NCBI RefSeq assembly: GCF_000013405.1
Contig: NC_007759.1
Location: 1,365,001 to 1,429,000 of the forward strand
Source: Syntrophus aciditrophicus SB
GTDB taxonomy: Bacteria > Desulfobacterota > Syntrophia > Syntrophales > Syntrophaceae
Length of the DNA: 64,000 nt
Direction: 5' to 3'
Shown: positions 41,601 to 59,013 of the stretch, in pieces
Numbering within the stretch: position 1 is the stretch's first letter
Layout: every line of letters begins with the position of its first letter
Made by a program: the position numbers and the translations under genes
The notes under the pieces: generated by a model
Told to the model about the DNA's origin: nothing
What the model saw: the letters and a program-made list of their open reading frames with translations, nothing else
The model's database searches: none

Positions 41601-43211
41601 TCATTTTCCAGGAAGTTCATCAATTTGTATTTTTGCTCCAAGTGGTCGTGGTAGCCCTTCTTGAAGAAGTTGTCCCTCTTCAAGCCATCGATGATCAAAG
41701 GTAAGAATCGCCTTGGCTCGCCACTCTTGAATACGCCTTTGCAAGGTTCGCAGCTGGCCATCGGAGTATTGGTCAGGATAGAGTATCTGGAGTTCACGCA
41801 AGATTGATTTTGCCGTTCGTTCCGGATTTTTTTCTAGTCGTCCACAGATCTCAGCCCATACGGATTGAAAGGGATCCTTACGTGTACGCCAGGTATGAGG
41901 AGCTCGCACAGCTTTCGTTCGATGGTATTTGCACTTCTGCGGTTCAGGATTACTTGGCACCATATCAGAAATGCTATTTCTGTCATTCTGCGCGGAATGA
42001 TTCAACTCAATTCTGTTAAATTCTATCTCAGCAAGCCGAACTGTGCTATTTATCCCCGCAGGTGGTTCTCCCGTCTGCAATACAGTATGTTTCCAAAGTG
42101 CATCCTGCAGGATTCTCAGCTGACGAAGAAGTTCTACAGGATCAAGAGCCAAGTAGATCGTATTAAGGCTTTCGGTCGCCTCGGCACCCCGTGCCGCACA
42201 TAAGCGCTGGAAGGGGGTTTTTGCCGGGCAGTAGATTTTTTGTATTCTGGCTCCACTGCGGTGCTTTTCATGAAGCTTCATCGACGGCTGGAAAAAGTTA
42301 ACATAGAGCCGCACCGCCCGGTAGAGTTCCCTCAACTGGAGAAAGGCCCCTTCTCCTTCAAATCGATCATAGCCGACCAACTGCCTTACGACCACCCCGT
42401 TTTTCTGCTCCACATAACATTGGTCGTTCTTCTTATAGGCACGCCCTCTTGTAAATGTGATTTTCTCACGCTCACAGTAAGCCAAGAGTTCCGCATTGAT
42501 AAATTCACTGCCATTGTCTGTATCCAGACCAAGAAGCGGAAAGGGCAATATCTTACGGATGTAATCAAGGCTTTCAATGACAGCATGCCGACTGCGGAAC
42601 AAAAGAGGTAGGCATTCCACCCAGCCGGTAGCAATGTCAGTTAGCACAAGGGTGTTGAGATAAGCTCCTTCGGTGCTTTGTCCACAATGGGCCACAAGAT
42701 CGGCCTGAAAAAAACCTGGCTCCGTTTCGTTCCAATCCGAAAATGTACGAACCAAAATCTGTTTTTTGAGAAGAATGCCGGATTTTGTTGTACAGGCACC
42801 TTGGGGAGCTGACTTTCTAAAAGGACGTAAAACTCGGTCAATGGTTGCCGGATTTATGGAAAGTAATTGGCTTCTGACTTTCTCCGTAACCTCCAGATGT
42901 CCATGGCGCTCCATGGCAGGCACAAGTTCTTCAAGAAACGGTGCAAGCCGCTTGGAGCCAATGAAATTGGCCGCTCCCCATAAAATCTGCAGCGCTTCCT
43001 GCACTTCAGTGCCATAACTACGCTGTCTCTGTCTCTGAATAGAAACCACAGGCGCCACGGCCGGCATGGAAAGCAACCGGATTGCATATTTCCTGGCATA
43101 GCCACTTGAGGCAATAAACTCATTTAGAATAATTGATTTCTGTTCGCGGCTGGCTTCTCTGTAGCGGGAAACCACCTGAGAAAGCAACTCTCTTCTGGAT
43201 TGAAAACTCAT
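41601..43211 (-). CDS. Integrase-core (rve/DDE) transposase of the 3.1-kb element
   Basis: With ATG 43211 the product has about 536 residues; the frame stays open 16 codons further. An N-terminal HTH-like region (IILNEFIASSGYARKYAIRL) precedes a retroviral-type integrase core with Asp in GFFQADLVAHCG, Asp in LGLDTDNGSEFINAELL and Glu in YVEQKNGVVVRQLVGYDRFE. The C-terminal part has a basic region. All three catalytic residues are intact, so the element may still be active. Confidence 0.85.
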   Translation of the reverse strand: MSFQSRRELLSQVVSRYREASREQKSIILNEFIASSGYARKYAIRLLSMPAVAPVVSIQRQRQRSYGTEVQEALQILWGAANFIGSKRLAPFLEELVPAMERHGHLEVTEKVRSQLLSINPATIDRVLRPFRKSAPQGACTTKSGILLKKQILVRTFSDWNETEPGFFQADLVAHCGQSTEGAYLNTLVLTDIATGWVECLPLLFRSRHAVIESLDYIRKILPFPLLGLDTDNGSEFINAELLAYCEREKITFTRGRAYKKNDQCYVEQKNGVVVRQLVGYDRFEGEGAFLQLRELYRAVRLYVNFFQPSMKLHEKHRSGARIQKIYCPAKTPFQRLCAARGAEATESLNTIYLALDPVELLRQLRILQDALWKHTVLQTGEPPAGINSTVRLAEIEFNRIELNHSAQNDRNSISDMVPSNPEPQKCKYHRTKAVRAPHTWRTRKDPFQSVWAEICGRLEKNPERTAKSILRELQILYPDQYSDGQLRTLQRRIQEWRAKAILTFDHRWLEEGQLLQEGLPRPLGAKIQIDELPGK

Positions 43212-43884
43212 TCTCAGCCTCACGATACCCCCCCTTTTTGCTTTTTCATGAAACAGCATGGGGACATTATGGGTTACATTTCTCGTGAGGCAACTGCTCT
43301 ATGAAAGGAAGATTTCAGGTGAGGCAATGCGAACGGGAAAAATAGTTGACGTTCATCACAATATAATGAGTTATGCGATTTATTGGAAAATTATATTATC
43401 CGAGGATATGATGTTAGAACAACTTTCCTGTTGGATTTTTTGATTCCTGAATGGGATTTTGAGCCTTCTCCCTATCTTTGTGGAAAAAGACTTGCTACGG
43501 TGCATCCTGATGGAACAGTTGCCTCATGTATTCGAGAACATTCATTTAAATCGGGAACAATTTTTGACGCAGATCCTTTAAAAGCAATACAATGCGATCT
43601 ATATCATAATGATTTCGGAGAACCGGACATTCCAGAAGAGTGCAGACGGTGTGACGTCAGAACAGCTTGTCAGGGAGGATGTCCGCAAGATAAGTTATTG
43701 CTGACCGGTACGAGGGCAGGAAAATCTGTTTTATGTGAGATACACAGAGAAATTATTCCAAAGTTAAGATACTTAAACCATCTAAAAAAAATCAGGGTTC
43801 CTCGAGACCACAATTGAGCGCTTCAAGGACTATCTTTCCCGTGGCCCTTTCCCAACGAGGAACCCCGGCAGACGATCTGTGGGC

Positions 43885-45539: not shown

Positions 45540-45547
45540 CAACTTTT

Positions 45548-46861
45548 GGTTCATCCGGTTAATGAGTACCTTGGTATTGCATAAAATCACATGGACATGG
45601 CAAGAGCCCTGTTGTTTGAGACCAATCGAACAACAAAAGGAGGCTCCAGACCATGTCCACATCGGTTCTTTATCATGCTTTCAATCTGAAGGGTATTACT
45701 TATAGAGCAACACGCTTCACGGGTGACGTCATCGAATATTTTGCAGATGTGAAAGAAGAATACATTCGCTGTCCAAAGTGCGGGCAGCGTAAATTTACCT
45801 TTAAAGGACAGAAAACACGGAGTTTTCATCTGGGACCTATGGGGCGTAAGAGGTGTTTGCTTGTACTTTCCCTTCATCGAATAAAATGCAACACTTGCGA
45901 CACCCTTTGGTGGCCCGATCTGCCTTTTATGGTGGGGAAGCATAGATTTGCCCGATCCTTTGCTCTGATTGTTCTGGATCTGCTTCGATTCGGCACGATT
46001 CGCTGGGTTGCCGATTACCTCGGCGTGGGTTGGGATATGATCAAAGAGATTCATAAGTTGAAATTGCAGCGCCTCTATCGGAACATTCCTCTTCATAAAG
46101 TTCGGTATATCGGCATTGATGAATTCAGCATCCGGAAAGGCCATGAGTACATGACCACGGTGATGGATCTCTCCGAAGGACGAATCCTTTACGCCACTGA
46201 GGGAAAGGGCAAGGAGGGGATTTTACCCTTCCTGAAAAAACTTGCACGCAAGGGGAAAAAACTGCGAGCGGTTGCAATGGACATGGGAATTTCCTTCTTC
46301 TCCGCCGTCCGGGAAGCCCTTCCCAATATCGATGTCGTCTTCGACCGTTACCATATTATGGCTCTGATGAATCAAGGCATCGAAAACTTGCGCAGAAATC
46401 ATCAGAAAGAACTTGATGATATCGGGAAGCAAACCCTCAAGGGAAACCGCTTCCTCCTTTTGCGAAATTATGATTCCCTGAAGCCGGACCATAAGGAACG
46501 TCTCGATGCCCTGATGCAGGCCAATCAGCCTCTATTCGTCATGCATTCCATGAAAGAGCAACTCAGACTCTTCTGAGAAATACCGGAGTACGCCCAGGCT
46601 GTTACCTTCCTTGACACCTGGTGTAAGGACGCCATGCTGTCCGGAATCAAAGAACTCGTCAAAGTAGCCAAAACGCTCTCCGGATACAGGACTGCGATAC
46701 TCAATTATTTCAAACATCACATTACAAATGCCGCCCTTGAGGGCACAAACAACAAAATTAAAACTTTAAAAAGGCAGGCCTATGGATTCCGGGATATGGA
46801 ATACTTCAAACTCCGCCTCTATCACCTGCATACTCAGAGGTACTCATTAACCGGATGAACC
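45548..46861 (+). mobile_element. ISL3-family insertion sequence
   Basis: Both ends carry a perfect 24-bp inverted repeat starting GGTTCATCCGGTTAATGAGT (45548-45571, and complementary at 46838-46861). CAACTTTT flanks both sides (45540-45547 and 46862-46869), the 8-bp duplication expected of ISL3. The single transposase gene has an internal stop. The 24-bp identity and intact target duplication indicate a fairly recent insertion. Confidence 0.95.
45653..46858 (+). pseudogene. ISL3 transposase with internal TGA
   Basis: AAAAGGAGGCTCCAGACC precedes ATG 45653. The first part has a zinc-finger-like CPKCGQRKFTF and CNTCDTLWW, an HTH, and catalytic Asp residues in YIGIDEFSIRKGH and VAMDMGISFFSAV. 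TGA at 46574-46576 interrupts ...MKEQLRLF; the same frame continues EIPEYAQAVTFLDTWCKDAM to LEGTNNKIKTLKRQAYGFRD with the third catalytic residue and a stop at 46858. Homologues usually have Trp at this point, so TGG to TGA is the simplest cause. The product would lack the catalytic Glu. Confidence 0.9.
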
Positions 46862-46927
46862 CAACTTTTGACTGTTCCGAGTGGGAATTTTTTAAAATGA
46901 AAATAAGCCATCCAAAACTGGATAGGA

Positions 46928-49900
46928 ATGGAAAGAAAAAGGAGTCTTATATTGTCCAATATCAGCCGATCCTGTTTGATAAAAGTAACCAATGATGCCT
47001 TGATTATTGCCAATGATGGCCAGCCGTTTTCTCGGCGCGGCATTATTTCTATCTGCGCCTCGCATCTGGGTACTAAATATGACGATTCATCAAAACAGTT
47101 GGATGTCGTGGAGATAGATGGCGATCTGTTCAATTTCATTGATAAAGTACAGGATGTCGATCTGATAGAGGCTATCCAGGACCGCCAGATACAGACATAT
47201 AAAATCAACCCTGATCTTATTCCCGAGCATGAGCGAGGGGAAAGAGAAATCGGGCTGGATTATTCCGGACGTTTCATCTGGGAATTACTTCAGAACGCCG
47301 ATGATGCAATGGCGCCTTTGGATATGCCAACGTCTCAGCTAATTGGCGCCAAAGGGCTTGGCTTTAAATCCGTCATGGAAGTCACGACTGAGCCGGAAAT
47401 ACATTCCGGGCCATTTCATCTTCATTTTTCTTTGGATAAAACTCTGGTTTTACTTAAAAAGCATGGCTTTTCCGGAATTAAACAACCACCGGTTTTCCGT
47501 ATTCCATTTAAAAAAGAACCCGATGAAGGCATCAAAGAGCTATTGGAATGTTATGCGACAGTTTTACGTCTGCCATTCGCAAATCATAAGAGAGAACAGG
47601 TATGTCAATCACTGCGGGAGCTTGATGCACACGTGCTTTTGTTCTGCCAGCATATAGAGGAACTGCGGATCATTCTTGATGAAAATTTAAAACGGATATG
47701 GACAGCAAAGCGGGAAACCGATCGTCCTTTAACGGACTGCCGCATACGGATCATGTTTGAGAATGAGCCGGAAGCTGATTTCAGCTCGACCGAATACCAG
47801 CGCTGGGCAAAAACATGGAATGTTAAAGGTCAAAGCAAGCTTCACAGTGTATCTATTTGTCTTCCCCTCGATGAAAATCGCAAACCCATTCCAATGAAAT
47901 ATCAGCAGCCATTACATGTATTTTTTCCAACAGAAGAAGAACTGCCGTTCCGGAGCATTATTCATTCATCCTTTGATTTGTCACAGAACAGAAAATTGAT
48001 TAGAAAAAGCGACTCGGACGCTTTGATCCTGAAAGAGCTTTCCCTGATTCTAAAACGAATGATCAGCGAAGGAGTGCCTGTGTCAACAATATTGAAGGCT
48101 TTCGCGCCGGCCAGTTGCCATTTGCCGGATAAAGAAAGCTGGGCGGAACGAATTTGGCTGGCGTTTAAAGATATCCTCATGTCTGAAAACTTTTTGCCCG
48201 TTATTGGAGGACATGCTGCCAGCCCGTTGAAAAGCCATACATGGGAATTCAATATAGGAAATATTCTTTCTCCGACAGCCGACGAAGTGAAAATGGCAAA
48301 CCTCGTGATACCCGAAATTCAAGATGATGCACACTGCCTTGATGCTCTTAAAAATTTAGGGACAACGCCTTTGCCATTACTGGTTTATCAGAAGTTGATC
48401 CTAAATTGTCTCAATAACACACCGGACGAATGTGAAAAAATAGTTCAGAGCCTTTATCGGATCATTGTGACCAGCGGTAAACAATTATGGGGTGAACGGC
48501 TTGAAGCATGCCTGGATCATTACCGTAAGGCAGAATGCTGGTGGAATCATGAGGGCAGGGCCAGACCCCTGGAGGGGAATCTGACACTATATAAAGAACC
48601 TCCCAGACAAATGATTCCGGAATGGCTTCCCATAGACTACCTGAATGATGATTTTTATAGTTCTTTAGAATCGATATTGCAGAATCCGAACTCGCAAAAT
48701 GAAACATGGAATGATTTTCTTAAAGATTACCTGCATGAGAGCGGTCATGGTGACGTTCTTTATTACTCCCTTGTCCCTGAACTTGAAAACCACACGGATC
48801 AGACATGGTGGGAAAATCATGGTCCGGATGTTCTTGAATTTTATAGAAAGCTGGATTTAGAGGTTGAGGAAACTGACACTTTGATTTGGGAAGATGAAAA
48901 CAGGATTCGTCTCGGTTATGCCTTGCGCCTCCCAACCGACAAGGGATGGATGCCTGCCATTTGTTGTTATGCAGGGCTCGCATGGGGGGGGCCGGAAGAA
49001 TTTGATGCATTTTTCCAGAACACTTCTGATCGTGGGGTTTTAAGTCCCCCGGATTCATGGCCTTTACAGATAGAAGAAAGTGAGTTCGAATTATTCAGTA
49101 GAGACTTACAATATGCCGGCGTATCCTGGCAAATGAAATTGATCCGGTGGCGGGAAAAAGAAAAAAGGTGGCCGATTAGAAGAAATCCTGCGAGTGGTCA
49201 TTGGATCTCTGAATCCCCCTTTGGCAAGGCTGTCAATAAGGTGCAGTGGGATGAGTATTGGATCTCTTTAGAACCGCCTCCGTACGATGATAGAACTGAA
49301 TTTGACTGGAATACAACGGTCCATGAGCAATGGGCCATTGAATATTTCCCGGATGCTTTGCCGAAAAAGGCGATAGACCGGCTGAAAGTATTAAAATCGA
49401 TTTCGATACCCATCTCCGATTCATGTCTCGAATATAAATACTCCATGCAGGGAGGGCATTTCCACAATGGTCATATAGTGCAAAAACAGGGGCGCCTGCA
49501 GTCCTTTGCATCTTGGCAGCTGCATAATTATCCCTGGATGCCATGCCGATCAAACCTTTTTTATAAGGGTACAGCGGTGCCACCTGGGGAAGCATATATC
49601 CCTGAGAGGGAATTCACGGGATTCCTTCCGGAGATCGATATCAGCTTACCTCATGGACAGGAGGGCAGGGATTTACAGACTTACATGACACGAGTCTTGC
49701 GGGTGAAGGAAAAGTTACCGCCTTCGTCAGGTAAGGAATGGAAATATTGGGCAGAAACTTTACCTGAAAAAGCCCAAACTGAACCAGATATGGAAAAAAT
49801 TAAAACGGCAGCGCGAGGAATTTATAAGTCCCTTTTCAAACTTAACGAGAAACCTGCAGGACTGTCTGCAGGGATGAAAATACCATGCATATGGCGTGGT

Positions 49901-50560
49901 CGAGACAATCAACTTCGCTGTGAGCAGGAAACGCTTGGGTTTCAACTGTCAGGTGACATGTATTGGTTGGATAAGCCTTACTTTGCTGAGCCAATAACAA
50001 GAAAGTCTGTGCTCGAACACTACAGAATTTTCCTGCTTGAATTGGATGAGGGTCGAAAGGCTGAAGAGTGGCTGGGGATTGAGCCCTTATCATCTATTAT
50101 AACTATTGAGCCTTTATGTGGGCATAAAGACGACAGGATGACAGAGATCGTCCGCTCAAGATATAAGGAACGTTATAAGATATTAGGGGCGATTGATGAA
50201 AACATCGAACTGCCGGAACCTGATGAACTGAATTTATCAGTTGTAGAGTATATAAGACTGCCAGTCCTTGCTGAAGGAATCGTTATTGCTTCGCCGAGCG
50301 TATACTCCTGGAGAGAAGACGAAACAATAATGATCGATTCGAGGGATCCATGGCGGGGTCTGGGGCTTGCTCTCGACACTCCCAATGATAGAAGACGGTC
50401 TGATACATTTGAAAACTTGTTAAAAGCAGAAGAATGGTCAGAGGTGCTGGAACGAACTCGGGAGCGCGGCATCTCTGACGCTGTTTTAAGAGATATTATA
50501 GTGACTTCTACAGACCTTCAAGTTGATGAAGCGGCCACAGGGGATAAAGGTTCGTTTTAA
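46928..50560 (+). CDS. Large sacsin-like GHKL ATPase-domain protein
   Basis: The 1210-residue protein has ATPase motifs of the sacsin/Hsp90-like type at its N-terminus. NDG near residue 29 (LIIANDGQPFSRRGIISICA) is followed by an N-box-like ELLQNADDA (119-127) and a glycine loop GAKGLGFKSVME (140-151). The order is unusual: the NDG box normally lies after the N-box. The remaining 1000 residues are unrecognised, acidic and Trp-rich. There is no membrane segment. The start is weakly supported (AGGA one base away) and the N-terminus may be truncated. Such proteins are often linked to phage defence or protein quality control. Neighbours are an ISL3 copy and unrelated genes, so context gives no direct clue. 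Confidence 0.65.
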   Translation: MERKRSLILSNISRSCLIKVTNDALIIANDGQPFSRRGIISICASHLGTKYDDSSKQLDVVEIDGDLFNFIDKVQDVDLIEAIQDRQIQTYKINPDLIPEHERGEREIGLDYSGRFIWELLQNADDAMAPLDMPTSQLIGAKGLGFKSVMEVTTEPEIHSGPFHLHFSLDKTLVLLKKHGFSGIKQPPVFRIPFKKEPDEGIKELLECYATVLRLPFANHKREQVCQSLRELDAHVLLFCQHIEELRIILDENLKRIWTAKRETDRPLTDCRIRIMFENEPEADFSSTEYQRWAKTWNVKGQSKLHSVSICLPLDENRKPIPMKYQQPLHVFFPTEEELPFRSIIHSSFDLSQNRKLIRKSDSDALILKELSLILKRMISEGVPVSTILKAFAPASCHLPDKESWAERIWLAFKDILMSENFLPVIGGHAASPLKSHTWEFNIGNILSPTADEVKMANLVIPEIQDDAHCLDALKNLGTTPLPLLVYQKLILNCLNNTPDECEKIVQSLYRIIVTSGKQLWGERLEACLDHYRKAECWWNHEGRARPLEGNLTLYKEPPRQMIPEWLPIDYLNDDFYSSLESILQNPNSQNETWNDFLKDYLHESGHGDVLYYSLVPELENHTDQTWWENHGPDVLEFYRKLDLEVEETDTLIWEDENRIRLGYALRLPTDKGWMPAICCYAGLAWGGPEEFDAFFQNTSDRGVLSPPDSWPLQIEESEFELFSRDLQYAGVSWQMKLIRWREKEKRWPIRRNPASGHWISESPFGKAVNKVQWDEYWISLEPPPYDDRTEFDWNTTVHEQWAIEYFPDALPKKAIDRLKVLKSISIPISDSCLEYKYSMQGGHFHNGHIVQKQGRLQSFASWQLHNYPWMPCRSNLFYKGTAVPPGEAYIPEREFTGFLPEIDISLPHGQEGRDLQTYMTRVLRVKEKLPPSSGKEWKYWAETLPEKAQTEPDMEKIKTAARGIYKSLFKLNEKPAGLSAGMKIPCIWRGRDNQLRCEQETLGFQLSGDMYWLDKPYFAEPITRKSVLEHYRIFLLELDEGRKAEEWLGIEPLSSIITIEPLCGHKDDRMTEIVRSRYKERYKILGAIDENIELPEPDELNLSVVEYIRLPVLAEGIVIASPSVYSWREDETIMIDSRDPWRGLGLALDTPNDRRRSDTFENLLKAEEWSEVLERTRERGISDAVLRDIIVTSTDLQVDEAATGDKGSF

Positions 50561-50595: not shown

Positions 50596-50892
50596 TTACC
50601 TGTAACAGCCAAGCACGGGGAGACGGGAGGTGATTTGAAAACCCGATCGTTTCGCAGATTCGATGAAATCAATTCTGATCGGTTTGGCTTTTTCCAGGAG
50701 TTCCTTATCAATGATGAAGGGAATACCCTGTTCCGTTACAATCAAATCATCTCCCTTTGGCTCATCCAGAATCATGGCGAGATAAGGTGTGTTGCGCTGC
50801 GACTGCAAAAGAATTCTGATTTTGCCACCCTCCTGATTGTCTTCCAAAAATTGTTTTATTTTTTCAACAGCCTTTTCTGTGGCTTCTATCAT
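50596..50892 (-). CDS. HesB/IscA-like small protein lacking the usual first Cys
   Basis: The 98-residue product has the HesB-like layout: MIEATEKAVEKIKQFLED, then ILLQSQRNTPYLAMILDEPK, then VTEQGIPFIIDKELLEKAKP and IDFIESAKRSGFQITSRL. Related anaerobe proteins have a Cys or selenocysteine where this one reads QSQRNTPYLAM, and only one Cys remains, in the tail VLGCYR. It may therefore not carry an Fe-S cluster. It follows pdxJ by about 58 bp on the same strand. Confidence 0.7.
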   Translation of the reverse strand: MIEATEKAVEKIKQFLEDNQEGGKIRILLQSQRNTPYLAMILDEPKGDDLIVTEQGIPFIIDKELLEKAKPIRIDFIESAKRSGFQITSRLPVLGCYR

Positions 50893-50950: not shown

Positions 50951-51691
50951 CTATTCCAATACTTCCAGCATTTCATCAACTGCCTTGAACAGGCCGACAG
51001 TTTCAGCCCTTTCAAATATTGAACGTCCGATTATGACATCGCCCAGTAACTTTGCATTTAAGACTGGCAAAACATTCTGGTAATTCAGACCATGTCCGGC
51101 ATTGAATTGTATTCCAATTTCTGCCGCACGGTTGGCGGCTCCATATATCCGAGCGATTTCTCGATCAATTACGGCTTTGTCAACGGCGTTACAATATGTC
51201 CCGGCATGGATCTCTACGAAATCAGCATCGCAGTCTTTCGAAAGTTCAACTGTTTCCGCGTCGGGGTCAACCAGGAGAGAAACCAGTATGTCTTGATCAT
51301 GAAAGAATTTAACTGTGTCTTTGACTTTTTGTCTGTATCGTCTGACGTCAAATCCGCCGCCTTCTTTGCTTTCATGCTTCTTTTCTGGGACAATTGTAAC
51401 CTGAGTCGGTTTAATTTCTTTTGCTATACCGATGATTTCATCGGAGAGCGGTATCTCAATGTTGAATTTTCCGCGGACCACGCCTTTTAAAGCTAAGACA
51501 TCCTTATCCTGTATATGACGCCTGTCTTTCCGAAGATGGACTGTAATGCCGTCACTGCCGGCATTTTCGCAGATGACCGCACCTTCAACGAGGTCAGGAT
51601 TATTGCCCCGTGCTTCACCCAACATTGCCAGATAATCGATCTTTACACTTAAAAAATTACGCTTGAAATAAAATACTCCTCCCATTGGCAT
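50951..51691 (-). CDS. pdxJ: Pyridoxine 5'-phosphate synthase PdxJ
   Basis: The frame contains the PdxJ sequence VKIDYLAMLGEARGNNPDLV, GSDGITVHLRKDRRHIQDKD, then VSLLVDPDAETVELSKDCDA, VEIHAGTYCN and the closing FNAGHGLNYQNVLPVLN and DVIIGRSIFERA. It condenses 3-amino-2-oxopropyl phosphate with deoxyxylulose 5-phosphate in vitamin B6 synthesis. The usual start just before VKIDYLAML has no ATG or GTG here, so a start at 51691 (AAAGGAG upstream) with a short extra N-terminus is chosen; other ATGs nearby are possible. Confidence 0.95.
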   Translation of the reverse strand: MPMGGVFYFKRNFLSVKIDYLAMLGEARGNNPDLVEGAVICENAGSDGITVHLRKDRRHIQDKDVLALKGVVRGKFNIEIPLSDEIIGIAKEIKPTQVTIVPEKKHESKEGGGFDVRRYRQKVKDTVKFFHDQDILVSLLVDPDAETVELSKDCDADFVEIHAGTYCNAVDKAVIDREIARIYGAANRAAEIGIQFNAGHGLNYQNVLPVLNAKLLGDVIIGRSIFERAETVGLFKAVDEMLEVLE

Positions 51692-51839
51692 GGATAGAGC
51701 TGCTCCTTTCTCCAATGGCTAAATTGTTACATGATCTGGAATCATTGATCAGATCCGAGTTCCGTTTTTTAATTCCTAATACTGGAACTCTTTCCTTACG
51801 TTGAACGTTCATTCTTTAGTGTCAGGCAATGTTTCATAA

Positions 51840-52189: not shown

Positions 52190-54178
52190 ATGAGGTACGC
52201 AGAGACTGGATATGATTTAGAAATTGATTTATCGACGGGCAACATAGAGCGGGTTGAAAGAGATCCGAGTTTGACCGAAACCCTTCTGGGAGGACTGGGC
52301 ATATGCGTCAAGACCATGTGGGACCGGGTACCACCTGAAACCAAGGCGTTTGATCCGGAGAATCTACTGATATTCAGTGCCCCTCTTTTGGTTGGTACGC
52401 CGGCGATGAGCTGTAACCGTACTGCCGTGGTCACCCTTTCTCCTCAGACAAACCTGTTGGCCTATCCGATGATGGGAGGATTCTGGGCGGCGGAACTGAA
52501 GTATGCCGGATACGACAGGGTCATCTTTCGCGGCAAGTCTCCCAGGCTTGTTTACATCTGGATCCACAACGACAAGGTGGAAATCCGCGATGCCGAGCAT
52601 TTGAGAGGTAAAGGCGCCGTTGAGGTTCGGGAGCTTATCAGAGAGGAATTGAAAGAGCCGAACGCCGCTGTCTGCGCCATCGGTGCAGCCGGTGAGCACC
52701 GGAACTTCCTGGCTTCCATTGAACAGGGTCGGTCGAGCTCCAGCCGTCTCGGAGGAGGCGCCGTAATGGGAGACAAGAACATCAAGGCGATTGCCGTCCG
52801 GGGAACCAAGGACATTAACCTCGCCGATGGGGCAAAATTCTGGGCGCACATGAAGGATGTCATCGATTATATCAATTACCGGAACGCCAATCCCATTCCG
52901 GACGTCATGACAATTCTGTCAGGAATCGGGTCGCCGCAGGAGATGGTCCACACGGATGAAAAATGGCACACGGAAAACTTCATGTGGGGAAATGCCCGCA
53001 CCCGGAGAAGGGGGTTCTGGGACGAAAAAATCTCCGTGGAATGGCCGAAAACGCAATTGAGCGCAATCAAACGGCTGATCAGTTGCTTCAACTGTCCACA
53101 ACATTGCGGAGCCCTGATTTCCTTCCGGGATGTTCCCCGATTCAAGCAGAAGTGCTTCACGAAGATGACTTATTGCATGGGGGCCTATGTAGACGATCTG
53201 GCCTTCAACTTCAGTATCTCACAGAAGGCAACGGAGTACGGCCTGGACGGGTTTGGAACCCCTCAATGTCTGGCAATGGCTGTCGAGCTTAGAGAAGCGG
53301 GCATTCTGACTGAAGAGGACTTTGCCGGGACGGATGAATATCCACCCTGTCCGCCCGCTGAAGATAAAGAAGGAACGTTTTACTGGCTCCTTGACCGGTT
53401 CGCACTTCGGCAGGGAATCGGAGACATAATGGCCGACGGCACTTACTGGATGGGTAAAAGGATCGGCAAAGGCGCCGAGGTATACGCCCATAATACCATC
53501 AAGAAACATGAGCAGCTTCCTCTGAAGCTGGGAACGATTGATCCCATTTACTACCTCATGTATACAACCAACGAGAAAATCAGTATTACCCAGATTGAAG
53601 GGAACTGGCCCCAGGGTGCTTTCCCCACGATGGAGCAGAGGGAAAGATTCATCAAAGATTGGCCCCAGCTTCCTGACGATCATTTCAAGCAATATCTCCT
53701 TGACTGGGAACCGCGCGGTGAAAACTCGATACCCTATTACCCGAAACCTCATATGTGCTCTGAAATCGTGGACTGGATGGAGATGCTCCACAACATCGAC
53801 GACGCTACGGGATTCTGCTGCGGTATGTCGTCATTCTGCCTGAAGCCTCCGTACCATATACACAACATTCCGAAACTGGTGTCAGCGGCAACGGGGATGG
53901 ATCTCGATGAGGCAGGGATAAAGAAAATCGTCAACCGCAGCCGTAATCTGCACAGGGCTTTTAATTTGATGAGAGGTATGACCCGAGCGGATGAAGTGCC
54001 GCCTGAAGATCACTGGAAGCGGAGAGACCACGAGTACGAAGAAAAACTCCTCGATACCTATTACCTTTACAAGGGGTGGAATCTGGACGGTGTTCCGACC
54101 CGGGAGAGACTCGAGGAGCTGGATTTGGGTTATGTGGCAGACGAATTAGAAAAGAGAGGTATATTGAAAAATGGCTAA
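52190..54178 (+). CDS. bamB: BamB-like tungsten aldehyde-oxidoreductase-family subunit (class II benzoyl-CoA reductase type)
   Basis: The 662-residue protein belongs to the aldehyde:ferredoxin oxidoreductase family. It begins MRYAETGYDLEIDLSTGNIE, has the cofactor-site stretch MMGGFWAAELKYAGYDRVIF and the cluster motif CFNCPQHC (CxxCxxxC). The segments DEKWHTENFMWGNARTRR and YAHNTIKKHEQLPLKL strongly recall BamB, the catalytic subunit that reduces benzoyl-CoA to a dienoyl-CoA in obligate anaerobes. The following genes match bamC, D, E and F in order. A paralogue acting on another cyclic acyl-CoA is possible. It carries no signal peptide, so it is cytoplasmic. Confidence 0.85.
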   Translation: MRYAETGYDLEIDLSTGNIERVERDPSLTETLLGGLGICVKTMWDRVPPETKAFDPENLLIFSAPLLVGTPAMSCNRTAVVTLSPQTNLLAYPMMGGFWAAELKYAGYDRVIFRGKSPRLVYIWIHNDKVEIRDAEHLRGKGAVEVRELIREELKEPNAAVCAIGAAGEHRNFLASIEQGRSSSSRLGGGAVMGDKNIKAIAVRGTKDINLADGAKFWAHMKDVIDYINYRNANPIPDVMTILSGIGSPQEMVHTDEKWHTENFMWGNARTRRRGFWDEKISVEWPKTQLSAIKRLISCFNCPQHCGALISFRDVPRFKQKCFTKMTYCMGAYVDDLAFNFSISQKATEYGLDGFGTPQCLAMAVELREAGILTEEDFAGTDEYPPCPPAEDKEGTFYWLLDRFALRQGIGDIMADGTYWMGKRIGKGAEVYAHNTIKKHEQLPLKLGTIDPIYYLMYTTNEKISITQIEGNWPQGAFPTMEQRERFIKDWPQLPDDHFKQYLLDWEPRGENSIPYYPKPHMCSEIVDWMEMLHNIDDATGFCCGMSSFCLKPPYHIHNIPKLVSAATGMDLDEAGIKKIVNRSRNLHRAFNLMRGMTRADEVPPEDHWKRRDHEYEEKLLDTYYLYKGWNLDGVPTRERLEELDLGYVADELEKRGILKNG

Positions 54179-54728
54179 AGTTATGAAGACAGTCAAGTCA
54201 ATCAAGGTTGATGCAGATAAGTGCAGCGGATGCCGGGCATGCGAGATAGCCTGCTCCGCCTTCCATGCAACCCCGAAGTACAGCAGCATTAATCCGGCCA
54301 GAGCACGCATCCAGATTATTCGCTACCCCCTGAGGGACATCTGGATGCCTGTCTTCGCGGGAGAGTATACACCGGCCGAATGCATGGGCAGACCCTCTTA
54401 CGTGATTGACGGCAAAGAATATCCGGAATGTGACTTCTGTAGGGCTTCCTGTCCGGCAAGGAACCGATTCAAGGAACCCGATTCCCTTCTTCCGCTGAAG
54501 TGTGACATGTGTGAAAGCGACCCGCCGGAGAAAGAGCCGCTGTGTGTGCAGTGGTGCTTAGAGGACGTCCTGACTTACGAAGAGAGAGAAGAGGAAGTCG
54601 AAGAAGGTATTGAGATAGAGGACGTGGAGGCTGGATTGTTGGCCATGGTGGACAAATATGGACTGCAGAAGATTCTGGACACTGCCACCCGAATTTCACA
54701 GAATGTTGTAACCTTTGAATCGAAATAA
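54171..54728 (+). CDS. bamC: BamC-like ferredoxin-type electron transfer subunit
   Basis: The 185-residue protein begins eight bases inside bamB's end. It has three Cys-rich groups: CSGCRACEIACSAFH, CDFCRASCPARN, and CDMC...CVQWC near the middle. It is DMSO-reductase/AOR-type iron-sulfur partner-like, with a Glu-rich tail. It should pass electrons between BamB and the Hdr-like subunits. Translational overlap supports a tight complex. Confidence 0.85.
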   Translation: MAKVMKTVKSIKVDADKCSGCRACEIACSAFHATPKYSSINPARARIQIIRYPLRDIWMPVFAGEYTPAECMGRPSYVIDGKEYPECDFCRASCPARNRFKEPDSLLPLKCDMCESDPPEKEPLCVQWCLEDVLTYEEREEEVEEGIEIEDVEAGLLAMVDKYGLQKILDTATRISQNVVTFESK

Positions 54729-54752
54729 AAAAAGGAAAAAGGAAGGAAACCG

Positions 54753-55910
54753 GTGGAGACTATAGCCCCCTTCAAGGAAATTATAGAGGAAGTTAAAGCG
54801 CACGGTGGAGACGCCTTCAAACGCTGTTTCCAATGCGGCTTGTGCGATGCCGTCTGTCCCTGGAACAAGGTGCGGCAGTTCAGCATGCGCAAGATCGTCC
54901 GTGAGGCCACGTTCGGCCTGACGGACATTGAGAGTGAAGAGATGTGGCGTTGCACCACCTGCGGAAGATGTCCCCAGCAGTGTCCGCGGGACGTAAAACA
55001 GATCGAATCCGGGGTTGCCCTGCGCAGGATTGCCACGGAGTACGGCGTATTTCCCCATTCCGTACAGCCGATCAAGAGCATCAGAGGCAGCCTTGTCGGT
55101 TCAGGGAACCCGCTGAACGAGGAGCGGGGCAAGCGAGCGGACTGGGCCAGGGGCCTGGATGTGAAGCCTTTTGCCGAGGGGATGGAGATTCTGTATTTTC
55201 CCGACTGCTATGCCTGCTATGACCCGCGGATGAAGAAGGTCGCGGTTGCCACAGCCAGGATTCTGCAGGCGGCCGGGGTGGATTTCGGCATCCTGGGCGA
55301 CAAGGAAGTCTGCTGTGGCGAGAGCATCCGCAAGGCAGGCGATGAGGAGGTGTTCCAGCGCCTGGCGAAGGAGAACATCAAGGCCTTTATCGATGCGGGT
55401 GTGAAGAAGATTCTTGTTTCGTCCCCCCATTGCTACCATACCTTCAAGAACGAGTATCCCGAATTCAGGGTGAACTTCGAGATCGTTCACATCACCCAGT
55501 ACCTGGCCGAGCTCATTGGCGAGGGACGGCTCAAGCTTGATCCGGACAAGGTGTATGAGAAGAAGGTCACCTGGCATGATCCCTGTTACCTGGGGCGGCA
55601 CAACGGCATCTACGACGAGCCCCGCAATGTTCTGCAGGCCGTACCCGGTCTGGAGTTTACGGAGCTGCCGGAACACCATGTCGCCAGTCTGTGCTGCGGC
55701 GGCGGCGGCGGTCGGATCTGGATGGAGACGATCAAGGGAGAGCGGTTCTGCGATCTGCGGATCGATCAGGCGGTCGATGTCGGGGCGGAGGTGCTGGTCA
55801 CCGCCTGTCCGTACTGCATCACCAACTTCGAGGACAGCCGGGTCACCATGGGTCTGGATGACAGGATCGAGGTTAAAGAGATCACGGAAGTGATTTCGGA
55901 ATTGATTTAG
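54753..55910 (+). CDS. bamD: BamD-like HdrB/HdrD-type (CCG domain) iron-sulfur protein
   Basis: Start GTG 54753 follows GGAAGGAAACCG. The N-terminal part has two [4Fe-4S] motifs (CFQCGLCDAVCPW and CTTCGRCPQQCPRD). The rest has two CCG-type domains of heterodisulfide reductase: PDCYACYD with VCCGESIRKAG, and HDPCYLGRHNGIYDEPRN with SLCCGGGGGRIW and ACPYC. The CCG motifs bind the noncubane clusters used in flavin-based bifurcation. It is GC-richer than the genes at the start of the operon. Confidence 0.87.
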   Translation: METIAPFKEIIEEVKAHGGDAFKRCFQCGLCDAVCPWNKVRQFSMRKIVREATFGLTDIESEEMWRCTTCGRCPQQCPRDVKQIESGVALRRIATEYGVFPHSVQPIKSIRGSLVGSGNPLNEERGKRADWARGLDVKPFAEGMEILYFPDCYACYDPRMKKVAVATARILQAAGVDFGILGDKEVCCGESIRKAGDEEVFQRLAKENIKAFIDAGVKKILVSSPHCYHTFKNEYPEFRVNFEIVHITQYLAELIGEGRLKLDPDKVYEKKVTWHDPCYLGRHNGIYDEPRNVLQAVPGLEFTELPEHHVASLCCGGGGGRIWMETIKGERFCDLRIDQAVDVGAEVLVTACPYCITNFEDSRVTMGLDDRIEVKEITEVISELI

Positions 55911-55941
55911 GAAATCATCACATCCGATGAGGTTGATATAA

Positions 55942-58900
55942 ATGGAAAAAGCAAACAGTAATTTTGGAGATGTAATGGTCGTCGGCGGCGGGATCAGCGG
56001 CATTCAAGCCTCTTTAGATCTGGCCACCGCCGGTTTCAAGGTTTACCTGGTGGAGAAGTCGCCCAGCATTGGCGGGCACATGGCCCAGCTGGACAAGACC
56101 TTCCCCACCAATGACTGCTCCATGTGAATTCTCGCACCTAAACTGGTCGAGGTCGGCCGGCATCCGAATATCGAGGTCCTGACTTACACGGAAGTGGATC
56201 GTGTAGCCGGGGAGGTGGGAGATTTCAAGGTCACACTGACGAAAAAACCCAGATACATCATCGAGGACAAGTGCTCGGGCTGTACTACCTGCGTGGAGTA
56301 CTGTCCGGTCGTCTATCCCGATGTCTACAATCAGGAGATATCAAAGAACAAGGCGGTTCATGTGTACTTCGCCCAGGCCATTCCCCTGGTGACATACATC
56401 GATGAGAGCTGCCTTTACCTGAAGGAGGACAAGTGCCGGATCTGCGAAGCCGTGTGCAAGCAGGACGCCATCGACTTCAGTCAGGTTCCCGAGCAGATGG
56501 AGGTCAATGTGGGGGCCATCATCCTGTCGGCAGGTCTTGAGCCGTTCGATCCCCGGCTGAGCAAGGAATACCATTACGGGGAGTTTGCCAACGTGGTCAC
56601 CGGCATGGACTTCGAGCGGCTGCTGTGCGCCACCGGTCCCTATGGGGGCGAGATCCTGCGCGCCTCCGACCTGAAGCATCCCCATAAAATCGCGTGGCTT
56701 TCCTGTGTCGGCTCCCGACGGGTGACCGAGGGCGAGAACAGCTACTGCTCCATGGTCTGCTGCACCTACAGTCAGAAGCATGCCATCCTGACGAAGGATC
56801 ACGACCCCGATGCGGAGTGCACGATCTTCCATAACGATGTGCGTTCCTATGGGAAGGATTTCGAGCGCTACGTCGACCGGACGGAGGCCCTTCCCGGGAT
56901 CCGGTTCATTCGCAGCTATGTGTCCATCGTTCGAGAGGACCCAGTCACGAAGAATGTTTTCGTCCGGTATTCCACGCCTGATGAAGGGGTCAAGGAAGAA
57001 GAATTCGACATGGTGGTTCTGTCGGTCGGTCTGGCTCCTCCGCTGGAGGTGAAGGCGATGGCGGAGAAGTTCGGCATCGAGTTGAACGAACATAATTTCT
57101 GCAAGGTCGATCCCCGCAATTCGTTGCAGACCAGCCGGCCCGGGATTTTTGTCAGTGGAGGCTTCCAGGGGCCGCTGGATATTCCCGAGTCGGTTTTCGG
57201 CGCCAGCGGGGCCGGCTCCCAGTGCGGCGAGCTTCTGGACTACCGGCGGGGGAACCTGTCCAGGGAAAGGGTTTATCCCGAGGAAAAGGATGTTTCCGGG
57301 GAAGAGCCGAAGATCGCCGTCTTCGTCTGCCATTGCGGCGCGAACATCGGCCGGATCGTCAACGTCCCCGAGGTCGTGGAGTACGCCCTGACGCTGCCCA
57401 ACGTGGTCTACGCGCAGGAGCAGCTCTTCTCCTGCGCGACGAACTCCGCCCAGGAGATCACCGACATGACCCGGGAGAAGGGGATCAACCGCGTGATCGT
57501 CGCCGCCTGCTCGCCGCGAACCCTGGAGAACCTGTTCCGGGATACCGTTCGCGAGGCGGGGATCAACCAGTATTATTATGAAATGCCCAACATCCGGGAG
57601 CACAACTCCTGGGTTCACGCGAAGGAAAAAGAAGAAGCGACCCAGAAGGCCAAGGATCTCCTCCGGATGTCCGTGGCTCGTGCTCGTCGTCTGCAGGCCC
57701 TGCAGGAATTTGACCTGCCGGTGAACAACAATGCGCTCATCGTCGGCGGCGGTGTTGCCGGCATGGTTTGCGCCCTTTCCATCGCCGAACAGGGTCATGA
57801 GGTCTACCTCCTGGAGAAGGAGAAGGAGTTGGGCGGAAACGCCAGAAGGATTCACACCACGCTGGAAGGGATGGATGTCCAGGCCTACCTGAAAGACCTG
57901 ATCCAGAAGGTCTACGGGAATCAGCTGATTCATGTCTACACCGGGGCCACCATCACGGAGGCGACGGGTTATATCGGCAATTTCGTCACCAGGGTGACTT
58001 CGGAAAGAGGTCCCGCGGAGATCAAACACGGGGCCGCCGTCATCGCCATCGGCGCCGAGGAATACAAGCCCACGGAATACCTTTACGGGCAGGACGAGCG
58101 GGTGATGACCCAGTTGGAGCTGGAAGAAAAGATTGCCCGGGGCGACGAAGCGGTCATCAATGGCGAGAGCCTGGTGATGATCCAGTGTGTGGGCTGCCGG
58201 AACGAAGACCGGAACTACTGTTCCCGGATCTGCTGCAGTCATGCGGTCAAGAATGCCCTGAAGCTCAAGGAGAAGAATCCCGCGAAGGATATCTACATCC
58301 TCTTCCGGGATATGAGGACTTACGGGTTTGCCGAGGATTATTACCGGCAGGCTTCGGAGAATGATGTCAAGTTTATCCGCTATGAGCCGGAGACCGCCCC
58401 CGAGGTGGAAGCCGTTGTGGAGGAAGGGAAGCCGGTGCTGCGGGTGAGTGTTCTCGATCCGATTCTGGGTCAGGGTCTTGCCCTGGATGCGGATCACCTT
58501 GTTCTGTCGGCCGCGGTGCTTCCCTCGGAAGCGACCAGGGAAGTGGCGAATCAGTTCAAGGTGACATTGAGCCTGGACGGCTTCTTCAAGGAAGCCCATG
58601 TGAAGCTGCGTCCGGTGGAATTTGCGACGGACGGTGTTTTCCTCTGTGGGCTGGCTCAATATCCCAAGCACATCAATGAGACGATCAACCAGGCGTATGG
58701 TGCGGCGGGCCGGGTCATCACCCTTCTGTCCCGCGACACGGTCACCGCCTCGGGTTCCGTCTGCGAGGTGGATGAGAAGAGGTGCATGGGCTGCGGGGCT
58801 TGCGCGTCGGTCTGTACTTACGGGGCCATCGAAATGCGCGAGACCAAGCAGGGCCGGAAAGCGACCATGAATCCCGTTCTCTGCAAGGGGGATGGTCTGT

Positions 58901-59013
58901 GCAACGCCATGTGTCCGACCGGAGCGATTTCCCTGAGGCACTATACCGAGGATGAACTCCTGGCCCAGATAGACGCGATCGTACCGGAGCAGGTGTCGGT
59001 CGAAGTCGACTGA
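55942..59013 (+). CDS. bamE: BamE-like HdrA-type flavoprotein, selenocysteine at residue 62
   Basis: The gene is read through TGA at 56125-56127 as selenocysteine (residue 62), giving 1023 residues. [19 protein letters not shown] is exactly the HdrA stretch in which other proteins have Cys. Order: FAD motif [19 protein letters not shown], ferredoxin motifs [12 protein letters not shown] and [10 protein letters not shown], a second HdrA-like FAD module near 590 ([20 protein letters not shown]), and a C-terminal ferredoxin domain ([11 protein letters not shown], then [12 protein letters not shown]). It is therefore a double HdrA. It probably carries the bifurcating FAD. A SECIS-like hairpin follows the UGA. 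Without readthrough it would appear as 61- and 939-residue fragments. Confidence 0.88.
56128..56165 (+). promoter_or_regulatory. SECIS-like hairpin in bamE mRNA
   Basis: Fifteen bases after the UGA, CTGGTCG (56143-56149) and CGGCCGG (56154-56160) form a seven-pair stem with two G-U pairs and the loop AGGT. Distance and size fit bacterial SECIS elements read by SelB, and the loop contains the GU often needed. Confidence 0.6.

Follow-up and report, generated by a model that had tools for sequence, protein, structure and literature searches.

The window analysed here, 64,000 nucleotides of the Syntrophus aciditrophicus SB genome (contig NC_007759.1, positions 1,365,001 to 1,429,000), contains an uninterrupted open reading frame (ORF) of 1210 codons at 46928-50560 on the forward strand. 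It encodes a large sacsin/TmtA-like protein in which the ATP-site segments follow the order B (the NDG segment), A (the N-box helix) and C (the G-loop), whereas canonical relatives have the order A-B-C. The permuted order is conserved in thirteen proteins. We consider it probable that the gene encodes a sacsin/TmtA-like ATPase with a segment-permuted GHKL (Bergerat) domain, the rewired ATP lid and the defence mechanism proposed below included. Gyrase, Hsp90, histidine kinases, MutL, MORC and sacsin all belong to the GHKL proteins; they count as some of the best studied of all nucleotide switches, and the order of their motifs is treated as fixed.

The three motifs lie exactly where the initial annotation placed them, NDG at residues 29-31, ELLQNADDA at 119-127 and GAKGLGFKSV at 140-149, and its suggestion of a permuted Bergerat fold is supported by twelve further proteins with the same order and by a profile test. 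The canonical profile was built from 27 sequences and has 335 positions; the sequences come from 19 loci of a genome-contig scan, from L020 and from seven loci found in genome searches. Near-copies, fragments and broken or unreadable frames (L043-L046, L048, L049, L056-L058) were excluded, and L005 and L009, with no usable frame, as well as L002, L006 and L013-L018 are also outside the set. The profile matches the window protein in three pieces (residues counted from the TTG codon at 46952): profile positions 58-97 at residues 7-46 (31.2 bits), 2-51 at residues 72-121 (42.8 bits) and, with the best score, 98-330 at residues 128-355 (143.9 bits), the sum being 217.9 bits. When the protein is rearranged in silico to A-B-C, there is one continuous match over profile positions 2-330 with the score 238.1 bits, and with B shuffled once the score is 190.9 bits. 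The rearrangement lifts the best match by 67-107 bits in all thirteen permuted members, and in all of them the true B outscores one shuffled B.

In the leave-one-out control, 25 of the 27 canonical sequences yield a continuous single match, the other two yield two matches in the canonical order, and none is permuted. Profiles of A and of B, made from the same thirteen proteins, produce one match each, in the B-A order, in 13/13; in this single-copy test, the frames used for L021, L024 and L034 lack their far ends. N-box and G-loop are 19-22 residues apart in the thirteen permuted proteins and 55-69 apart in the 27 canonical ones, so that the ranges do not overlap, and the A-to-C junction of 10-13 residues is common to all thirteen. 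Chance motif matches are ruled out by the profile test together with the leave-one-out and single-copy controls. The alternative of a duplicated or lost N-terminus, also raised in the initial annotation, is not supported, since A and B have single matches throughout and the starts picked at the 11 sibling scan loci are situated 13-21 residues (15 in seven of them) ahead of the NxG, or "LLVANTG", strand. The TmtA models of PADLOC also match in pieces, three different models being involved: residues 13-54 correspond to model positions 78-119, residues 84-128 to positions 10-53 of a second model, and residues 136-1136 to positions 108-1070 of the best model (E-value 2.9e-65).

The permuted set comprises the window protein, encoded in a single-contig genome of 3,179,300 bases, WP_258124242.1 (1408 amino acids) from a complete plasmid of Mesorhizobium onobrychidis, and at least 11 loci from the scan. 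The Mesorhizobium protein has the B-A-C order and is 27% identical to the window protein over a 1201-column alignment. The scan, queried with the 87-residue A-C junction of these two proteins, yielded at least 39 loci, at least 11 of them permuted: among the matches listed, L021-L030 and L034 have no insertion in the junction and an N-terminal B, and 26 of the other 28 are readable as canonical, while L048 is displayed in part and L058 has a broken frame. By label, the scan members belong to the Myxococcota, Planctomycetota, Nitrospinota, Nitrospirota, Pseudomonadota and Aquificota, with L027 coming from a bin without a phylum. The swapped order in such distant bacteria thus looks like a real rewiring of a common fold and not like a damaged gene. 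Homologues with a complete canonical N-terminus, which according to the initial annotation would mean that this copy is merely truncated, do exist, but only among other relatives; the nearest homologues are permuted. One canonical relative, P0004 from the Thiodictyon syntrophicum plasmid pTs417, has the ATPase domain, the long middle region and, as read from the sequence, a C-terminal IEVK...IYWS region, but its order is A-B-C. The permuted sibling from a Nitrospirae bin (L024:4056-8245) is split over two overlapping frames, by a frameshift or a sequencing error.

Among 60 near genomes, including the own genome and three of the same genus, matches were observed only in the own genome and, weakly (E-value 2.6e-5), in one other; the three congeneric genomes have no homologue of the window protein. 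Among 395 genomes of the phylum, 13 matched, that is, the own genome and 12 others at E-values of 3e-18 or worse, and those with a readable order are canonical. A junction-profile survey (E-value ≤ 1e-6) matched 2/398 genomes in the phylum of the Sphingomonas bin and 9/392 in that of the Planctomycetota bin. Three of these eleven matches, with scores of 134-151 bits, have the permuted junction, and all three genomes are already in the scan set; the other eight score at most 52 bits, five being canonical by motif spacing (L068, L071-L074) and three (L075-L077) unreadable by spacing. By these counts, few of the sampled genomes carry the permuted form. No relative was found in viral contigs, none in phage records at an E-value of 1e-3, and none among PDB sequences searched by phmmer; the whole-protein scan of genome contigs produced pattern matches in nine stretches, none of which was confirmed.

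Invariant across the thirteen members are the Glu and Asn of the N-box (ExxxN), the Asn and Gly of NxG, and the glycines of the GxxGxG G-loop. The classical GHKL box is DxGxG; it does not occur in the window protein, which has AN-x-G instead. In nine aligned canonical relatives the N and the G at this place are invariant too, so that NxG is a trait of the family.

The structure prediction proposed in the initial annotation was run with AlphaFold2 for residues 9-415 and 12 permuted sequences, and produced a good model similar to Hsp90, GyrB, MORC and sacsin, with the mean predicted local distance difference test (pLDDT) score of 84.5 and the predicted template modelling (pTM) score of 0.85. The B hairpin (residues 11-20) has a mean pLDDT of 95, and the only stretch below 50 is the B-A linker (residues 39-58). 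The alpha/beta sandwich and transducer fold of GHKL proteins are present in this prediction, with modest Z-scores: VIA-align yields 9-10 for Hsp90, GyrB, topoisomerase VI and MORC3, and 9.1 for sacsin SR1 (5v47) over 138 residues at 3.4 Å. Sequential aligners follow just a part of a permuted chain. In the sacsin SR1 alignment, model residues 2-252 correspond to chain residues 130-342, and since 130 falls past the sacsin N-box (in construct positions, with an assumed numbering offset), B seems to be aligned and A skipped; in the TRAP1 (6xg6) alignment, model residues 85-385 correspond to 88-451, A and C being aligned and B omitted. Judged from these aligned ranges, the predicted spatial relations of A to C and of B to C look canonical. 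In the viral structure library, one match had an E-value ≤ 0.001, a giant-virus Hsp90, followed by an RIIA protein (1.9e-3).

A tree of 40 rows was constructed from the columns of A and C only, with B omitted. Twelve of the thirteen permuted proteins form one branch with support 100/99. A single clade of all thirteen is present in just 54% and 14% of bootstrap trees (the first and the second tree, respectively), and is compatible with the data by the approximately unbiased test (p 0.358, or 0.459 after five long rows, L034 among them, were dropped). One origin of the permutation is the simplest reading, and two origins are possible. As the GHKL fold at large has the A-B-C order, the permuted order is derived; it likely arose when A-B was duplicated in tandem (A-B-A-B-C) and the first A and the second B were then lost, ordinary steps that would leave B-A-C.

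The initial annotation described the remainder of about 1000 residues as having no recognised domain. This holds for Pfam, with no match at E-value ≤ 0.1 beyond the ATPase domain, but the remainder is TmtA-like over most of its length, and the middle region aligns to the siblings over its length. The middle-region model (pLDDT 71.5, pTM 0.54) had no PDB match at E-value ≤ 0.001, and nothing firm on the fold follows from it. A point absent from the initial annotation is that the C-terminus is shorter than in the siblings: the protein stops just past the shared middle region, at the boundary with a variable linker. Eight of the nine aligned siblings continue into a NOV_C-like region, and the ninth, L021, is cut by the contig end. 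Out of six siblings searched with Pfam, NOV_C (PF13020) is above the cut-off in three (L023, L025, L029), below it in two (L027, L030) and absent from L026, which has an ESD...EVK...YWS pattern in the alignment. The Mesorhizobium protein has no NOV_C match at E-value ≤ 0.1, and a similar pattern is readable in it. Between the stop of the window gene and the next gene at 50596 there is no readable trace of this domain. NOV_C is the former DUF3883. In passages of PMC3710099, DUF3883 is termed a novel restriction endonuclease (REase) domain. Two NOV_C proteins encoded elsewhere in the same genome (L060, L061) look, as judged from their sequences, like SNF2-type helicases and unlike the ATPase described here.

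Given the absence of the putative effector region, the window copy is either a nuclease-less variant or decaying. If the permutation is real and this copy is an effector-less remnant beside a multi-copy insertion sequence (IS), one would understand why the NOV_C-like region and its linker are gone, why an IS copy lies 90 bp upstream and why no homologue was found in the congeneric genomes. However, the 1202-codon frame is intact and retains the nucleotide-site residues, it is preceded by a good ribosome-binding-like site, and its stop codon coincides with the point where the middle region gives way to the variable linker. We give decay serious weight, short of an even chance.

For the permuted ATPase we propose the following mechanism. 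The permuted chain, in which only about a dozen residues separate the N-box helix (A) from the G-loop (C), would fold into a normal GHKL nucleotide site and bind ATP. Since the chain enters the G-loop from A here and from B in canonical relatives, the ATP lid would be rewired. As in other GHKL proteins, binding of ATP may then close the dimer; the large middle region would serve as the trigger sensor, and the nuclease-like NOV_C C-terminus of the siblings would be the effector, probably directed against phage or other foreign DNA, all within a one-gene system. Both the ATPase and the defence activity are what we infer. TmtA (Tiamat) is catalogued as anti-phage, and a defence role, at which the initial annotation hinted, would be consistent with the TmtA match and, for one sibling, with nearby Ssp genes. 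The changed attachment of the ATP lid is the most specific testable consequence, and a conserved natural permutation provides an independent test of which connections matter, notably the coupling of the ATP lid with the N-box helix and with the closing of the dimer.

The nucleotide site could also be assembled between subunits, B completing the ATP site of the partner via the variable linker in a domain-swapped dimer, so that ATP binding would be strictly dimer-dependent. Exchange of N-terminal strands between partners occurs in GHKL dimers such as Hsp90, and here the free N-terminus is formed by B, with a variable linker of low confidence after it. Yet the monomer is already predicted well, with most of B included, and we regard the swap as unlikely. 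Even less probable, in our estimate, is that B is an N-terminal appendage without nucleotide function and the domain a nucleotide-independent scaffold: GHKL-like domains lacking ATPase activity exist, but the Glu and Asn of the N-box, NxG and the G-loop residues are invariant over thirteen divergent members. Finally, an artefact in which mis-assembly, a mis-called start or a frameshift places NDG before the N-box found no support, the one split sibling frame (L024) being broken farther downstream, and is refuted by the order and the junction length common to thirteen separate records, among them the single-contig window genome and a complete plasmid.

Several observations weigh against a permuted, functional defence ATPase. 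The gain of the rearranged over the native summed score is only about 20 bits. The domain model was built on just 12 sequences, and its G-loop block (residues 131-140) averages a pLDDT of 65. Foldseek yields only two matches at E-value ≤ 0.001 (Hsp90, TRAP1), followed by MORC, with TM-scores of about 0.3, and the VIA-align Z-scores are modestly above the best values of 7-8 that are common for models without a clear match, so they are supportive and not overwhelming. In the tree, L030 from an Aquificota bin is placed in an unresolved fork beside the branch of twelve. By record titles, 11 of the 13 permuted members come from metagenome bins. The window copy has neither the NOV_C-like putative effector region nor its linker, and PADLOC, applied to seven neighbours at three of the twelve other loci, shows clear defence genes near one locus.

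The closest known system is TmtA (PADLOC PDLC03964-03972), with homology that starts at the G-loop and extends across the middle region, as judged by E-value and not by the own cut-offs of PADLOC; PDLC03967 also matches the C-terminal region of the sibling L023. Since the canonical N-terminal order was tested and permuted pieces were found instead, we do not classify the window protein simply as Tiamat. It also lacks the C-terminal NOV_C/DUF3883 region seen in relatives, a candidate defining trait of TmtA. In the literature, Tiamat appears in a table row among systems of unknown mechanism (part of PMC12926258) and in passages on genomic hotspots (PMC12629846). The sacsin N-terminal ATP-binding-like family NF047352 of NCBIfam matches at 53 bits (cut-off 50) in three stretches, the best being segment B (16-55), whereas the Pfam SACS score is below the cut-off (22.6 vs 32.8). 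The N-box and G-loop motifs are shared with sacsin SR1, but in the sacsin crystal construct the N-box (27-43) lies far ahead of the G-loop (104-127), leaving room for NxG between them. With Hsp90/TRAP1, GyrB/ParE, MutL and MORC, the window protein shares the predicted fold and the nucleotide-site residues; it differs from GHKL ATPases in connectivity, in the order of the N-box, D/N-box and G-loop, and in having NxG in place of DxGxG.

No permuted GHKL, Bergerat or sacsin ATPase was found in the open-access papers searched, most subscription papers and all bioRxiv preprints being beyond the scope of the search; in passages of PMC8195603 the word "permuted" refers to a different domain. On balance we lean towards a conserved natural GHKL permutation that is previously unreported, with a rewired lid and an ATP site whose assembly perhaps depends on a tethered or partner element, in a one-gene defence protein spread over at least six named phyla. 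Since order-dependent profiles see the ATPase domain as fragments, counts of permuted members in this defence-related family may be too low.

The coordinates are listed in the table. By its sequence context, TTG at 46952 (residue 9) is a likelier start than ATG at 46928, as it has AAGGAG 7 nt upstream and is close to the positions of the starts picked for the siblings: it is 16 residues ahead of the "LLVANTG" strand. Several sibling frames also have alternative start codons farther upstream.

Table. Positions of the gene, its segments and its surroundings in the window.
Feature	Coordinates	Strand	Remarks
Second transposase-like gene	41601-43259	-	Sub-cut-off matches only, to the rve core (weak) and to the IS481 and IS21 families; few kb upstream
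144-amino-acid ORF	43383-43817	+	SPASM-type Fe-S domain as the sole Pfam match; next to the transposase, probably a fragment of a gene
IS target duplication CAACTTTT	45540-45547 and 46862-46869		8 bp; flanks the ISL3-type element
ISL3-type insertion sequence	45548-46861	+	Terminal inverted repeats; 90 bp ahead of the TTG
AAGGAG, ribosome-binding-like site	46939-46944	+	
Probable permuted sacsin/TmtA-like ATPase gene	46952-50560	+	1202 amino acids from the likely TTG; 1210 from the upstream ATG
Segment B	46970-47089	+	NxG beta-hairpin and next helix, N-terminal here; canonical profile 58-97
NDG motif	47012-47020	+	N29 and G31 (1210-residue numbering) invariant in 13 members
B-to-A linker	47090-47164	+	Variable length; first part of low confidence in the model
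Segment A	47165-47314	+	Helices with the N-box; canonical profile 2-51
N-box ELLQNADDA	47282-47308	+	E119 and N123 invariant in 13 members
A-to-C linker	47315-47332	+	Short; site of the NxG segment in canonical relatives
Segment C	47333-48016	+	G-loop plus remaining GHKL/transducer region; canonical profile 98-330
G-loop GAKGLGFKSV	47345-47374	+	
Large middle region	48017-50497	+	No Pfam domain; aligns to permuted siblings and TmtA models; moderate-confidence model
C-terminal end	50498-50560	+	Siblings go on into the linker and NOV_C (DUF3883)-like region, absent here
pdxJ-like gene	50951-51715		Intact; near the ATPase gene
AOR-like oxidoreductase, ferredoxin-like, HdrD-like and HdrA-like genes	52190-59013	+	In a row, by ORF reading

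The mobile element that the initial annotation saw alongside the gene is confirmed as an ISL3-type IS. It has eight copies in the genome, the one in the window included, with 99-100% identity. The transposase frame of the window copy is interrupted by an internal stop.

At the twelve other permuted loci, no recurring neighbour gene was seen in the ORF lists examined by eye, several of the loci being short. The gene of the Sphingomonas bin (L026:618-9602) is situated downstream of SspG and SspH genes identified by PADLOC, two ORFs away; the SspH match is spread over two ORFs. The Mesorhizobium gene comes after a nuclease-helicase gene, the helicase part of which matches MkoA (E-value 2.6e-46), with a DUF4258 gene between them. 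A UvrD-type helicase ahead of the Brocadia-bin gene matches the RTasHel and GajB models (E-value 1.8e-131), a match that we attribute to the fold that helicases have in common. Pfam scans of four neighbours, at L022, L025, L028 and L030, show a PIN protein, a Fic protein, an AAA/DUF4143 protein and a nucleotidyltransferase. These surroundings are compatible with a mobile one-gene system, but prove nothing.

Downstream of the window gene, the row of oxidoreductase genes looks like a bam gene cluster (class II benzoyl-CoA reductase). The pdxJ-like gene has a second copy in the same genome (contig 1, 2947387-2947798, reverse strand), which is broken into two pieces, each with a stop.

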